Assembly: GCA_018714165.1 (NCBI GenBank)
Contig: DVNU01000028.1
Span: 1-36,931, forward strand
From: Candidatus Coproplasma excrementipullorum
GTDB taxonomy: Bacteria; Bacillota; Clostridia; Christensenellales; Borkfalkiaceae
DNA: 36,931 nt
Direction: 5' to 3'
Of this stretch, positions 24,298 through 29,952 are shown piece after piece. The position numbers and the translations under genes are program-made. The notes under the pieces are model-generated. The model was not told where the DNA came from. It saw nothing but the letters and a program-made list of their open reading frames with translations, and made no database searches. How positions within the stretch are numbered: position 1 is the stretch's first letter; every line of letters begins with the position of its first letter.

Positions 24298-24891
24298 ATG
24301 ATTGGTTATTTAAAAGGTAAATTAATATATTCTACAGCCGATACCGCATTGATTGAAGTAAACGGCGTCGGATACGAAGTTTATTGCTCCGCTCAGGCGT
24401 TTTCCAAAATGTCTGTTGGCGAAACGTGCGAAGTGTACACCTACCTTCAGGTCAGCGAGCAGAACGGCGTAACGCTGTACGGCTTCTCCTCGGTTGAGGA
24501 GAAAAATATGTTCTTGAAGCTCATCTCCGTTTCGGGCGTTGGGCCCAAAATGGGCATAGCCGTGCTGTCGTCAATGGATTCATCCTCGCTCGCGGCGGCA
24601 ATCGCCACGCAGGACGTAAAGCGGCTGTCATCGGTTAAAGGCCTGGGTAAAAAGACGGCAGAGCGCATAATTTTGGAGCTCCGTGAAAAGGTTGGCGCAA
24701 TCGCCAAAACAACCCCTGCATCTGGCGTTGCCCCCGCAGTATTGCCCGACGACGGCGATGAGGACGCAATCGTTGCCCTGCAAACTTTAGGCTTCACTCG
24801 TGCCGAAAGCGTCAAGGCCGTCGCCACCGCCAAAGCCAACGGCGCCACCGGCATTGAAGAGATAATAATGACCGCACTCAAAAGTATTTGA
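24298..24891 (+). CDS. ruvA: Holliday junction branch migration protein RuvA
   Basis: A 197-residue junction-binding protein with an N-terminal OB-fold (MIGYLKGKLIYSTADTALIE), two helix-hairpin-helix units (LISVSGVGPKMGIAVLS, LSSVKGLGKKTAERIILEL) and a C-terminal RuvB-contact domain (EDAIVALQTLGFTRAESVKA). AAGGAG precedes the start. Normally ruvB follows at once; here ~670 bp with a four-helix-bundle gene and repeats intervene. Confidence 0.96.
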   Translation: MIGYLKGKLIYSTADTALIEVNGVGYEVYCSAQAFSKMSVGETCEVYTYLQVSEQNGVTLYGFSSVEEKNMFLKLISVSGVGPKMGIAVLSSMDSSSLAAAIATQDVKRLSSVKGLGKKTAERIILELREKVGAIAKTTPASGVAPAVLPDDGDEDAIVALQTLGFTRAESVKAVATAKANGATGIEEIIMTALKSI

Positions 24892-24894
24892 GTG

Positions 24895-24980
24895 CAGGGA
24901 ATAGGGGATAGTGAATAGGGGATAGGGAAGGTTAAGAGTGTATGCGGCAACGCCGCCAGATAAATAATCTTTATAATAAT
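24895..24980 (+). repeat. 86-bp direct repeat, left copy, with G-rich heptamers
   Basis: Begins 4 nt after ruvA. It contains four heptamers in a row (ATAGGGG, ATAGTGA, ATAGGGG, ATAGGGA; 24901-24928). The core GTGTATGCGGCAACGCCG and an AT-rich tail follow, both near-identical to 25412-25497. The core holds the hairpin GCGGCAACGCCGC. Confidence 0.8.
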
Positions 24981-25010
24981 TCCATCATTCCTGCCCCCTA
25001 ATTTAACCTT

Positions 25011-25370
25011 ATGGAAAAATTTCAGGATTTAATAGTGTGGCAAAAATCTATGCAACTTGTTAAATGTGTATATGATTTAACAAGTAAGATACCAGTGCAT
25101 GGTAATTTTGCTATTATAGATCAAATGCGGAGAGCGGCGATTTCTATACCTTCCAATATTGCGGAGGGGCATGAACGCAATAGTACAAAAGAATATTTAA
25201 GGTTTTTGTCCATTGCAGCAGGTTCAAAATCAGAGTTACATTCACAAGTTGAAATTTGTAAAATGCTATCATTAGTTTCGGACGATGATGATCAATTGTA
25301 TGATTCGGTTATTAATCTTTTGGTTGAAGTTGGAAAAATGCTCAATACAATTATAAAAAAATTAAGCTGA
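25011..25370 (+). CDS. Four-helix-bundle protein (S23 / 23S rRNA intervening-sequence family)
   Basis: A 119-residue helical protein of the S23/IVP family. Hallmarks are FQDLIVWQKSMQLVKCVYDL, the central QMRRAAISIPSNIAEG and the late helix KSELHSQVEICKML. Relatives occur inside 23S rRNA intervening sequences, and the fold is shared with Avd of diversity-generating retroelements, but the cellular role is not established. Base composition is much more AT-rich than flanking ruvA and ruvB. It lies between 86-bp direct repeats and splits ruvA from ruvB. No Shine-Dalgarno is visible, only TTAACCTT before the ATG. Likely a recent insertion. Confidence 0.9.
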   Translation: MEKFQDLIVWQKSMQLVKCVYDLTSKIPVHGNFAIIDQMRRAAISIPSNIAEGHERNSTKEYLRFLSIAAGSKSELHSQVEICKMLSLVSDDDDQLYDSVINLLVEVGKMLNTIIKKLS

Positions 25371-25411
25371 ACTATTTCAAATGACCTTTCGCCGTCCCTA
25401 ACCCATAAATA

Positions 25412-25497
25412 CAGGGAATAGGTGGTAATTAATAGTAGATAGGGAAGGTAAAAGTGTATGCGGCAACGCCGCCAGATAAATTAATCTTTATAATAAT
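25412..25497 (+). repeat. 86-bp direct repeat, right copy
   Basis: Imperfect copy of 24895-24980. The G-rich heptamers are more decayed, while the core (AGTGTATGCGGCAACGCCG, then CAGATAAATTAATCTTTATA) is almost unchanged. Just before it, CCCTAACCCATA (25396-25407) looks like part of a C-rich heptamer array. Confidence 0.8.
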
Positions 25498-25503
25498 CCC
25501 CCC

Positions 25504-25552
25504 CCCTAACCCCTAACCCCTAATCCCTAACCCCTAATCCCTAACCCCTAAG
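25504..25552 (+). repeat. Seven tandem CCCTAAN heptamers before ruvB
   Basis: Seven uninterrupted heptamers: CCCTAAC x2, CCCTAAT, CCCTAAC, CCCTAAT, CCCTAAC, CCCTAAG. The last unit runs into the ruvB ribosome site (AAGGA) 8 nt before its ATG. The complement, GTTAGGG, is telomere-like and could form G-quadruplexes on the minus strand. Confidence 0.9.
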
Positions 25553-25560
25553 GAACACTT

Positions 25561-26631
25561 ATGTTTTTCGATGAAGAAGATTACACAACGGACGATGAAC
25601 AACGCTTAGTTCAGTCCACCAAGGGCGAATACGACGCCGAGGAAAATGTCCTCCGCCCCAAAACTCTGGACGCCTACGTCGGCCAGAGCAAGGTGAAGGA
25701 AAACCTGACCGTCTACATGAACGCCGCCAAAAAGAGGGGGGAGGTGCTTGAGCACGTCCTTCTTTTCGGCGCGCCCGGCCTCGGCAAGACGACGCTCGCG
25801 CATATCATCGCCAACGAGATGGGTGGACAGCTAAAGATGACCTCGGCCCCCGCCATAGAGCGCAGCGGCGACCTCGCCGCAATACTCACCAACCTCAACG
25901 AGGGTGACGTGCTGTTCATCGACGAAATCCACCGCCTCAACCACAGCGTGGAGGAGATTTTGTATTCGGCAATGGAGGACTACGCCCTCGACATTATAGT
26001 CGGCAAGGGCCCTTCGGCGCGCAATATCCGCTTTTCACTCAAAAAATTCACGCTTATAGGCGCCACCACCCGCGCGGGCATGATCTCCAATCCCCTGCGC
26101 GACAGATTCGGTATAACCTGCCGCCTGGAGATGTACACCCCCGCCGAACTCAGGGAGATTGTAACCCGCTCGGCAAAAACGCTCGGCATCTCCATTGACG
26201 ACGAAGCCGCCATTGAAATTTCCAAGCGTTCTCGCGGTACGCCCCGTATCGCCAACCGCCTGTTAAAGCGCGTGCGCGACTTCTCCACAGTAAACGGCAG
26301 TTCGACCGTAACGCTCAAGGACGCCCGCTTTGCGCTGGGCAGAATGGAGATAGACGAACTCGGCCTCGACGAAGTCGACCGCAATCTGTTAAAGGCGATG
26401 ATAGTCAAGTTCGACGGAAAACCCGTAGGCCTTGAAACGCTCGCCGCCACTATAAATGAGGACGCGGGCACTATCGAGGACGTGTACGAGCCATATCTAT
26501 TACAGCTCGGCTTTATAGCGCGCACGCCGCGCGGCAGAGTCATCCTCAAGGGCGGCTACGAACACCTCGGCTATACGCCCACCGCAACGCAATCGGCACA
26601 AATTTCGCTGTTTGATAAAAAGGGAGAATAA
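25561..26631 (+). CDS. ruvB: Holliday junction branch migration helicase RuvB
   Basis: A 356-residue AAA+ motor that drives branch migration with RuvA. Walker [12 protein letters not shown] (about 69-79), Walker [13 protein letters not shown] (about 117-128), sensor 1 LIGATTRAG, the arginine finger in PLRDRFG, and a C-terminal winged helix ([16 protein letters not shown]). The extreme C-terminus carries [11 protein letters not shown], whose QISLF fits the sliding-clamp-binding consensus. Its ribosome site is the last unit of the heptamer array. Neighbours on both sides are four-helix-bundle genes rather than the usual ruvA and queA. Confidence 0.96.
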
Positions 26632-26639
26632 GATTCTCC

Positions 26640-26735
26640 ATGAATTGCGCTTTTCAAGCGCATGAATTTTCGCCGCTATAAGCGGCTCAATGAATTGAAT
26701 ACTTCGTATTCATGAATTGCAAACTGCGTTTGCGT
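26640..26735 (+). repeat. Array of four 15-nt hairpins with ATGAATT spacers (copy 2)
   Basis: Four perfect hairpins, each with a 6-bp stem and 3-nt loop: GCGCTT-TTC-AAGCGC (26647-26661), GCCGCT-ATA-AGCGGC (26672-26686), GAATAC-TTC-GTATTC (26697-26711) and GCAAAC-TGC-GTTTGC (26719-26733). Their starts are 25, 25 and 22 nt apart, and all spacers contain ATGAATT. It fills the gap between ruvB and the second four-helix-bundle gene and ends just before that gene's ribosome site (GTTGAGGT). Confidence 0.85.
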
Positions 26736-26749
26736 TGAGGTAAAAATTA

Positions 26750-27226
26750 ATGAAAGATAACACTCTCATTGAAATTACGAGGCAGTTTGCCGTAGAAATT
26801 GTCAATCTCTGTGCGCGTATTGACGATAAAAAATATTTGGTTTTATTCAATCAATTATTGCGCAGCGGTACAAGTATAGGTGCAAACACGCATGAGGCAA
26901 ATTACGCTGCCAGCAGGGCGGATTTTATAAATAAATTTCAGATAGCGCTCAAGGAATGTTACGAGACGGAGTATTGGTTACGATTATTGAAAGATACTTA
27001 TTTAATTGATGATGGAAAGTATCAGAATTTATACAACCAGTGCAGTAAAATACGCAAGCTTCTTGCAACGTCGATAATGGTATGCAATATAGAAAAAGTG
27101 ATTTCAACTACAACCTCCCCCCCGAACTCATCGCGCAGACTCCCGTCGAGCCGCGCGATTGCTCCCGCCTGCTCGTCTACAACCGCGCTACGGATAGGGT
27201 TGAACACCGCATATTCAGGGACATAA
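26750..27226 (+). CDS. Four-helix-bundle protein, C-terminus running into queA
   Basis: A member of the S23-type four-helix-bundle family in a different branch from the gene at 25011. [20 protein letters not shown] and [19 protein letters not shown] are its hallmarks. Such proteins are usually ~115-125 residues; here the family part ends near residue 112 (KLLATSIMV). The frame then continues through the first 145 nt of queA in another frame to a stop at 27224-27226, giving 158 residues with an unrelated tail (Ser/Pro/Arg-rich). It probably lost its own stop when it was joined to queA. GAGGT precedes the start. Role unknown. Confidence 0.85.
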
Positions 27227-28209: not shown

Positions 28210-29952
28210 TTACTCGGAATACAAAAATTTATGCTCAATTCCGTTTTTAAAGAGAATTGAGATGATTTTGCCGTCCAAAATTACAATTTTTTTGATGATG
28301 GTATTGACAAATTCTTTGATGATTTTAGCATCTATTTTTCGTATCAAAGTTTCAAAATTTACATACCGTTTGGTAAGCAATTGCTGACTCATAATGAAAT
28401 AAGATGCTTTTGATATGAAGTCTTCGTCAGATATTGAAAACGCTGCTGCGGAGTTCTTTTCGATTTCTTCAAGACGCTTGTCTATGCGTTCCAAGTCGTC
28501 AGTTATTGATTTGCGCTCAATGATATACTCTGTTTCGGGCATATCATCGTCGTTGTATAAATAGATTGCTTTAAGACGTGCTAACGCACGTTCTTTTTTT
28601 CTGCGCTCTACAAGCAACAAATCACGTTCTGCGGTCGTACTTTCGTCCACTTCAATATTTCGTGGAGAGTATGTATTGCTATTGAACTTGCCTGATTTGA
28701 GCATATCATACATTTCACGCAAGCCGGTGCCTTCAATCTTGATAACATTTGAAAATGAGTCGCCGCGGAGAAGTTTCTTCTCGAATGTTTCAATGCTCGT
28801 GCTTATTCCAAAATTGTTTTGCGCTTTGATTATGTTTGATATGTAATTCAATACGAAAGGAGCAACTGTTATATCGGAAACGTATTTGTTCGGGCAGTCG
28901 TTAAACCTTCGATGGCGTGAGCAAAGGTAAATAGATGGTCTATATCCGTCCTCGCGCGGTCTATCTATCGTTGCGTTCATTTGTGAACCGCAGCGACTAC
29001 AGATGAGGAGTCCTGCAAATATATGAGTGTTTACCCTCGTATATGTTCGAGGACCATCTTTATTGCTGCGGCGATTTGATTGAAGCTGTGCATTTACAGA
29101 CTCCCAACGCTCTCTTTCTATTATAGCCGGGTGGTGGTTCTCAACAAGAATCCACTCCGATTCAGGCCTGCGATTAGATTTCAGTCTATAATTTGTTTTG
29201 CTTAAATTATGTTTGTTGTACAGATAATCACCCACATAGAACGGGTTTGCAAGCATTGTCCTTGATGTTGTCGGGTTCCAGGGTGTTCCGCTGCGAGGAA
29301 ATAAATGACGCTCGTTCATATATTTGCAAGTTTGTAAAAGCGAGTGGGTTTCCTCGTATTTCTCGTAAATGATACGAACAGTAGACGCCTCCGATTCGTT
29401 TATTGTAAAGGTCTTTGTTTCCTTATCGTAATCATATCCGAAAGGAACTCTGCCTCCGTTCCATTGACCGTTATTTGCTCTTGAAACCATAACAGCGGTA
29501 ACGCGTTCAGATGTCATCTTGCGTTCAAGTTCTGCAAATATAAGAATTATTTTAAGCATTGCCTCGCCGATAGCGGTAGAGGTATCAAACTGCTCATTCT
29601 TGCTTACGAACACCACGCCAAGGCGTTTAAGTTCGTCGTACATAGTTGCGAAGTCAAGAAGATTTCGGGATATGCGGTCTATCTTCCAGACGACAAGATG
29701 CGAAAACTCACCTGTACGAAGTCTGCTCATCATTTGCTGATAAGCCGGGCGATCTGTATTCTTTGCAGAATAACCAGCATCTTCGAATATTTCATACTCT
29801 GAAATGTTAAGTGCGTATTTGGAATAATTTATCAGGTCGTCCTTTTGAAGGGGAAGGCTGTCCTTGTCAATCTGCCAATGGGTAGATACTCTGACATAAA
29901 GGGCAGCCTTTTGTTTTTCAATTTTTGTAGTGGTACTCTTATTTTTTTGCAT
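28210..29952 (-). CDS. Large serine recombinase (prophage integrase)
   Basis: A 580-residue large serine recombinase for integration and excision. The resolvase-like catalytic domain (residues ~15-155) has the nucleophile in ALYVRVSTHWQ (Ser23) and the conserved VVWKIDRISRNLLDF. The recombinase domain (~175-280) contains VPFGYDYD and RMLANPFYVGDYLYNK-like stretches. A zinc ribbon (CSRCGSQ ... CSRHRRFNDCPN, ~318-355) and a C-terminal coiled coil (ERDLLLVERRKKERALARL..., ~440-500) follow. Its 3' end points at queA, as expected for an integrase next to the attachment site. It is the last gene of the leftward lysogeny operon, 17 nt after the nuclease-like gene. Confidence 0.94.
   Translation of the reverse strand: MQKNKSTTTKIEKQKAALYVRVSTHWQIDKDSLPLQKDDLINYSKYALNISEYEIFEDAGYSAKNTDRPAYQQMMSRLRTGEFSHLVVWKIDRISRNLLDFATMYDELKRLGVVFVSKNEQFDTSTAIGEAMLKIILIFAELERKMTSERVTAVMVSRANNGQWNGGRVPFGYDYDKETKTFTINESEASTVRIIYEKYEETHSLLQTCKYMNERHLFPRSGTPWNPTTSRTMLANPFYVGDYLYNKHNLSKTNYRLKSNRRPESEWILVENHHPAIIERERWESVNAQLQSNRRSNKDGPRTYTRVNTHIFAGLLICSRCGSQMNATIDRPREDGYRPSIYLCSRHRRFNDCPNKYVSDITVAPFVLNYISNIIKAQNNFGISTSIETFEKKLLRGDSFSNVIKIEGTGLREMYDMLKSGKFNSNTYSPRNIEVDESTTAERDLLLVERRKKERALARLKAIYLYNDDDMPETEYIIERKSITDDLERIDKRLEEIEKNSAAAFSISDEDFISKASYFIMSQQLLTKRYVNFETLIRKIDAKIIKEFVNTIIKKIVILDGKIISILFKNGIEHKFLYSE

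Follow-up and report, generated by a model that had tools for sequence, protein, structure and literature searches.

The window, i.e., the whole analyzed stretch of 36,931 nucleotides, raises the question of how a short gene for a four-helix-bundle (4HB) protein came to stand between ruvA and ruvB, and what the seven-nucleotide repeats around it are. We consider it likely (probability about 0.7) that the locus holds one insertion of a widespread, small element of the intervening sequence (IVS) type, which consists of 5′ heptamers, a 4HB gene, and complementary 3′ heptamers and would act as an RNA hairpin.

The ruvA-ruvB junction and its repeat unit

The genes ruvC, ruvA, a 119-aa 4HB gene, ruvB, a second 4HB gene, and queA follow each other in this order, all on the + strand. 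The features of the locus are:

24298..24891, + strand: ruvA, upstream host gene (TIGR00084, 199.7 bits)
24895..25001 (end approximate), + strand: left repeat unit with G-rich heptamers, hairpin core, and one CCCCTAA end (BLAST, sequence)
24896..24929, + strand: left G-rich heptamer array, the 5′ arm (Tandem Repeats Finder, period 14, score 61)
25011..25370, + strand: 4HB gene, 119 aa, PF05635/TIGR02436 (profile matches; solved relative 2GSC)
25389..25408, + strand: extra C-rich end (CCCTAACCCATAA) in the interval between the gene and the right unit (repeat family D6, sequence)
25412..25551, + strand: right repeat unit (first 89 bp 89% identical to the left unit; the unit of locus L008 matches too)
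25503..25551, + strand: right C-rich heptamer array, the 3′ arm, 7 copies of CCCCTAA (Tandem Repeats Finder, period 7, 7.0 copies, score 84)
25561..26631, + strand: ruvB, downstream host gene (NF000868, 503.1 bits)
26750..27226, + strand: second 4HB gene in the ruvB-queA interval (TIGR02436, 98.0 bits; sequence)

The initial annotation had described an AT-rich 4HB gene between ruvA and ruvB, and both the position and the composition were confirmed. The protein encoded at 25011-25370 scored 117.6 bits against TIGR02436 (cut-off 24) and 118.8 bits against PF05635, 23S_rRNA_IVP (cut-off 33.8), and the GC content of the gene was 0.322 compared with 0.519 for ruvA, 0.563 for ruvB, and 0.479 for the window. 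One relative with a solved structure is 2GSC (XCC0516 of Xanthomonas campestris, E 4.7e-23). No match was found in the phage collection. The suggested leads to 23S rRNA IVS and to Avd also held, the protein belonging to PF05635 and matching bAvd weakly below cut-off. The initial annotation had also described the gene as lacking a ribosome site, but the purine-rich heptamers could serve as one.

The repeat at 24895 was found again at 25412-25500 with 89% identity (BLAST). In every copy, G-rich heptamers at the start and C-rich heptamers at the end flank a GCGGC/GCCGC hairpin core, which makes the unit imperfectly palindromic. The 4HB gene is flanked by two such palindromic units, and the further C-rich end (25389-25408) lies 5′ of the right unit. 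CCCTAANCCCTAA occurred 16 times in the own 1.7-Mb assembly compared with 0 occurrences of the reversed pattern. The G-rich arm together with the hairpin core matched seven other places of this assembly, all without a 4HB gene (C12:1841, which is split by another insert, C12:10990, C34:10392, C52:5169, C52:17584, C69:25783, and C74:22607), and none of them coincided with the three 4HB genes of the assembly. Shorter fragments of the unit matched at further places. The 86-bp direct repeats that had been proposed as the ends of a cassette are therefore real as repeats, but as cassette ends they were ruled out, being neighboring copies of a dispersed, mostly gene-less unit. Likewise, heptamers are present on the G-rich and the C-rich side as had been described, but each repeat copy alone carries both ends.

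The ruvB search in 41 genomes of the genus yielded 30 loci, 28 of which showed both ruvA and ruvB (L119 and L136 did not). In 21 of the 28 readable junctions, the gap between the two genes did not exceed 44 bp, and the other long gaps measured 100, 136, 208, 401, 401, and 796 bp. A 4HB gene occurred at this junction in the window's own genome only (1/28), while TIGR02436 matches of other genomes in the genus were situated elsewhere. The nearest relative by ruvB (L114, 94%) carried a 401-bp stretch of different, gene-less repeat sequence between ruvA and ruvB. Judged by these junctions, the 4HB gene at ruvA-ruvB is a lineage-specific insertion. The comparison with empty junctions that the initial annotation had called for thus showed no vertical conservation across the genus, and the inserted 4HB gene with heptamer arms was upheld by its absence from 27 of the 28 junctions and by the insertion of the package elsewhere.

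Both other 4HB genes of the own genome were located in palindrome arrays, as were several in the genus and order. The second 4HB gene of the window (26750-27226) has short palindromes upstream (26640-26740) with a ATGAATTG linker, and it runs at its 3′ end into the queA frame, which starts at 27082. Gene-less repeats were present at the ruvB-queA junction of the nearest relative (L114) too. The third 4HB gene (L002 on C52; compare L183-L212) lies between halves resembling a gene-less GTGAAAT...ATTTCAC repeat (L013, L025), for which the search returned 34 matches in the own assembly. Another repeat of this genome, CCCTTTGTCATTT...GACAAAGGG, was found inside or beside heptamer units (L007 at 1570-1810, L009 at 1425-1490, and L026 at 1430-1490). 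A large serine recombinase related to CcrB/XisF, scoring under the curated cut-offs, is encoded at 28210-29952 on the − strand, where it adjoins queA with two ORFs alongside.

Heptamer arrays across phyla and empty sites on plasmids

The association of arrays with 4HB genes was surveyed in 68 loci from many phyla, obtained from a scan of genome contigs with the window protein. Arrays in flanks of 250 bp were scored with +1/-2 at a single lag and a threshold of 10, which 50 of the 68 loci reached at lag 7 and 38 at lag 14; none of the other lags between 4 and 15 reached it in more than 5. Lag-7 arrays were found in 69 of 135 near segments (51%) compared with 8 of 599 segments located 1.2-2.4 kb distal (1.3%). 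With same-site relatives collapsed by our own judgement, 33 of 49 sites carried lag 7, 26 lag 14, and at most 4 any other lag; the lag-7 score was at least 9 on both sides in 22 of the 49. A second set of 29 Bacillota loci, two of them with an internal stop codon, comprised the best TIGR02436 matches of the 68 positive genomes among 398 sampled in the phylum. Here, lag-7 arrays occurred in 20 of 29 loci and in 29 of 58 flanks compared with 12 of 167 distal segments. Seven-base-pair arrays near other family members, the second point that the initial annotation had wanted checked, were thus present at most sampled loci. No lag-7 array reached the threshold in 18/68 and 9/29 loci, respectively, which counts against our reading, as do the 4HB genes in palindrome arrays. 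Periods of 8, 9, or 10 were found in a few loci (L059, L086, L061, L089, and L046). The rRNA context of 16 chosen loci, six of them array-less, contained two tRNAs and no rRNA.

The arms match each other in inverted orientation. When the upstream 150 bp were compared with the reverse complement of the own downstream 150 bp, 48 of 67 loci scored above the 95th percentile of cross-locus pairs, compared with 5 of 67 in direct orientation, and the own partner was the best of all arm matches in 30 of 67 loci. The consensus heptamers varied (GGGGTTA, GGGGCTA, GGCCAGA, GGAAAAC, GTTTTCA, GATTCAA, GGGAACA, and others), with at least four of seven positions being purines on the coding strand in 52 of 65. 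Protein and heptamer similarity were weakly correlated (Mantel r 0.157, 0/500 permutations) across the 92 pooled loci, which include the window genome's own three, and the rise was restricted to protein identities above 50%. One fixed heptamer per protein type was ruled out on this ground. The heptamer turns over, and the 7-bp period persists. Given that heptamers change and period and complementarity stay, recognition by structure is more likely than recognition by sequence. For the same 92 loci, neighboring genes were counted as 66 same and 21 opposite upstream and 62 and 26 downstream; the crude ORF caller was noisy in GC-rich DNA and the counts stand without a background rate, and we claim no sense-strand bias. 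The downstream flank of the 4HB gene in Lysobacter (L064) showed a GGGAATC-like array, close to the heptamer of the Xanthomonas G-quadruplex repeat as given in the available text of PMC4692102. On contig 150 of genome G368 (L251), four TIGR02436 matches in approximately 5 kb form an apparent 4HB cluster.

On plasmids, the window protein matched 27 records, mostly cyanobacterial, of which 10 were inspected and 5 had their empty sites searched. Arrays stood on both sides of the gene in 9 of the 10 inspected records (by eye), the exception being L147. Empty relatives were found for all five sites, and gene and arrays were both missing there. The pairs, filled versus empty, with the identity of their flanks were:

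Trichormus variabilis ATCC 29413 plasmid C (4HB gene AVA_RS28115) versus Tolypothrix: 97.6%
Nostoc C052 versus C057: 94.8%
Calothrix brevissima versus Tolypothrix and Aulosira: 90.4 and 89.7%
Picosynechococcus PCC 7003 (between cas10 and cmr3) versus PCC 7002: 87.5%
Nostoc ATCC 53789 versus Nostoc C052: 93.1%

A 5-bp duplication (GTAAT) bounds the insert in T. variabilis (428 bp) and in Scytonema (414 bp), which represent one common event. For the insertion in Nostoc pNsp_c, 3 bp (ATG) are common and lie at an overlapping stop and start, and elsewhere target duplications were not readable because the flanks have diverged. That a target duplication is clear in one event only and that another event shares just 3 bp counts against our reading. 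No transposase was found in the resolved inserts of 414-518 bp. The package thus measures approximately 400-500 bp in the resolved plasmid cases, with one gene and no transposase, yet it is found in many phyla.

The neighboring junction of the pNsp_c Nostoc operon holds a distinct 4HB gene whose heptamer also differs (L160, L162, and L164). A gene-less stretch of inverted arrays occupies the C052 site in Nostoc ATCC 53789 (L156), and at the site of the T. variabilis insertion, Nostoc C052 plasmid E carries what looks like a degenerate copy (L154). Between L145 and L146, the 4HB gene was 99.7% identical, compared with 83, 94, and 87% for neighboring coding stretches, and the array copy number differed. 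L049 and L095 share flanks of 90-91% identity, while their 4HB genes are without a DNA match and their heptamers differ. The match between L108 and L104 spans gene and arrays (-41 to +20), with adjacent flanks that are not collinear and other homologous pieces kilobases off in a different arrangement. One site with a 4HB gene was kept across many related species (e.g., L096, L100, L104, L105, L109, and L112), and such sites count against constant movement.

The empty sites bear on two other explanations. According to the first, the arrays are independently selfish and 4HB genes land in or between them by recombination, as chance cargo. The window gene, lying between two complete units of a mostly gene-less kind, would suit this. 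It is nevertheless very improbable, given that the empty plasmid sites show no array prior to the arrival of the gene, that arrays accompany 4HB genes in many phyla at the near and distal frequencies given above (51 versus 1.3%), and that the two flanks match in inverted orientation. According to the second, the operon (e.g., CRISPR, conjugation, or restriction) benefits from its 4HB gene, and the arrays are local repeats with a regulatory role or a slippage origin. The conservation of some sites across related species and the variable array copy number (L145 versus L146) agree with this, as does the selection on the gene: purifying selection was observed in the measurable pairs, with dN/dS of 0.03-0.17 in seven of 12 gene pairs, some of which share a sequence and two of which are near saturation; of the remaining pairs, one gave 0.86 on very few changes and four gave no usable ratio. 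The purifying selection also counts in favor of our own reading. The gene is also listed as cas-locus-associated in the available texts of PMC3936711 and PMC10910872, where PF05635 genes in cas loci, one of them between Cmr3 and Cmr2, are read as having a CRISPR-associated function. A working part is nevertheless improbable, because relatives with flanks of 87-98% identity lack the package at the corresponding junction, including cas10-cmr3 in Picosynechococcus PCC 7002 (L150 versus L159), and because the package is present in unrelated operons and inside 23S rRNA. Under the preferred reading as insertions, the reported CRISPR association of 23S_rRNA_IVP may partly reflect them, and 4HB proteins encoded in operons for CRISPR, restriction, or conjugation would be insertions rather than working parts. 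In the available text of PMC10053308, PF05635 is taken as Avd-like in retroelement-based immunity. Among open-licence PMC full texts, no paper was found that links PF05635 genes generally to heptamer arms or shows operon insertions.

Relation to 23S rRNA intervening sequences and other repeats

Bacterial 23S IVS with an S23/IVP gene are reportedly the subject of work by Ralph and McClelland in 1993. In our survey, a 4HB gene was located inside the 23S rRNA gene in three genomes (G180, G120, and G245); the Rfam LSU model spans the 4HB gene in L243, L245, L252, and L253, while L244 and L246 were assigned as 23S copies by their identity to L243 and L245. Heptamer arms were visible by eye on both sides in the IVS of all three; in G120, the left arm reads GAGAGGT GTGAGGT GAGAGGT and the right arm CACATCT TACTTCT CACATCA CACTTCT. 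The same genome also carries a 4HB gene between protein genes (L215), with a quite different array. In G245, a gene-less hairpin with heptamers of a similar type splits the 23S IVS gene (L252 and L253, near 1960-2080).

The IVS of Coxiella is described as 428 nt long with a 28-bp terminal stem and excision by RNase III, with tandem heptamers 5′ of the S23 gene whose number depends on the strain (PMC4990558, available text). According to the same text, S23p is probably not produced in vivo and is undergoing decay. This restricts the role that can be ascribed to the protein there and counts against a needed protein in our reading. The window element shares with 23S IVS the protein family (PF05635/TIGR02436), a terminal stem with the only gene in its loop (in the window from a predicted fold), a similar size (428 nt in Coxiella compared with 414-518 bp for the plasmid inserts), and the tandem heptamers seen in Coxiella and in the three 23S IVS examined. 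Unlike them, it lies between the protein genes ruvA and ruvB, and its processing is a prediction; owing to this location outside rRNA, it is classified as a variant and not as a 23S IVS. Because the same package is found inside 23S rRNA in three genomes, rRNA IVS appear to be particular forms of a single element class that includes the intergenic packages. The window fits such a class with its inverted 7-bp arrays on both sides, and the package points to a widespread, little-noticed kind of heptamer-armed, IVS-type mobile element, broader than the cassette initially annotated. If true, the origin of ribosomal IVS and of IVS proteins would be explained. In CPR bacteria, IVP genes are scattered over rRNA insertion sites, and ORF-less inserts are given for other families at the same sites (PMC11270868, available text).

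Other known systems resemble the window element in part. Compared with the accessory proteins Avd and bAvd of diversity-generating retroelements (DGR), the window protein is of the same fold family with a weak sequence match of 29.7 bits against the Avd model (cut-off 80) and 24.2 bits against bAvd (cut-off 40). DGR membership was rejected on these scores, and neither a reverse transcriptase nor a template repeat was identified at the window locus. Intergenic heptamers are described from Xanthomonas, Nostoc, and Beggiatoaceae, and the available texts make no gene link (PMC4692102, PMC4679880). Those of Xanthomonas (GGGAATC) and Nostoc (GGGGA(C/T)T) are 7-nt G-rich units like the ones here, and the Xanthomonas repeats include 70 and 75 convergent (inverted) pairs; in contrast to the present arrays, no link to a gene or mobile element is described in the available text of PMC4692102, which contains neither "four helix" nor "S23". 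If our reading is true, the identity of some bacterial 7-bp repeat arrays would be explained. Miniature inverted-repeat elements (MITE) and REP/RAYT share the dispersed, palindromic, gene-less intergenic copies, whereas the arms described here keep their 7-bp period and not their sequence, and the gene is no transposase. REP/RAYT was rejected on the basis of 0 matches of PF01797 (Y1 transposase) in the own assembly, which is 81% complete.

Arm pairing and possible routes of spread

In the predicted RNA fold of the window locus, the outer arrays were paired around the gene with an MFE of -173.2 kcal/mol (z -3.88, 0/20 shuffles). Duplexes between the 100-nt flanks of 92 loci beat all 25 shuffles in 43 loci; in 35 loci, they surpassed every one of the 25 cross pairs. 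The inner 100-nt duplex of the window was not among the significant loci because its arms lie further out. That fewer than half of the arm duplexes beat all shuffles, and that the inner 100 nt of the window fail to, weighs against our reading. So does the window protein itself, which is acidic (pI 6.27) unlike 64 of 82 relatives with a pI above 7.5.

The element that we propose has mostly purine-rich heptamers at its 5′ end, followed by the 4HB gene and complementary heptamers at its 3′ end. It would be cotranscribed with the host operon, and base pairing between its arms would give a long stem that encloses the 4HB gene. By analogy with what is published for 23S IVS, RNase III would cut this stem, and an insertion between cotranscribed genes would be tolerable owing to such processing. 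More speculatively, the 4HB protein might bind its own hairpin and promote the spread of the element. Spread might possibly proceed via an RNA or cDNA intermediate with a reverse transcriptase acting in trans, which is suggested by analogy with the related Avd that works with one.

Movement could also take place at the DNA level, with the arrays as binding sites of a 4HB pentamer (an operator or transposition end), a host enzyme or one acting in trans, and the RNA stem as a by-product. The short target duplication of one event, the gene-less copies with the same ends in the manner of MITE, the mostly basic proteins (64/82 above pI 7.5), and the weak correlation of protein and heptamer (Mantel r 0.157, 0/500 permutations) are all consistent with this. 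The heptamer, however, varies widely and tracks the protein only above 50% identity, the resolved inserts of 414-518 bp are without a transposase, and the own assembly (81% complete) gave no Y1 transposase match. We therefore regard movement at the DNA level as possible but unlikely.

The RNA-hairpin reading can be extended, tentatively and with less than even confidence, to a class of transposase-less RNA-hairpin elements whose 7-nt arms keep period and complementarity but not sequence and whose sole gene encodes an Avd-related 4HB protein. IVS, many of the dispersed heptamer repeats, and many presumed accessory genes of CRISPR, restriction, and conjugation loci would then be insertions of such elements or their remains, spread would run through an RNA intermediate with a reverse transcriptase in trans, and the arms would arise by stepwise re-copying. 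The own genome gave a single RVT_1 match barely above the cut-off (30.1 versus 29.6 bits), which leaves a reverse transcriptase acting in trans unproven and counts against this part of our reading. The hypothesis of an RNA route draws on the kinship with Avd, on the transposase-free inserts, and on an element in genome G431, of which four copies (L247-L250) were identical over more than 4.2 kb and encode a bAvd-like protein and a reverse transcriptase together with an Rfam RT-9 RNA.
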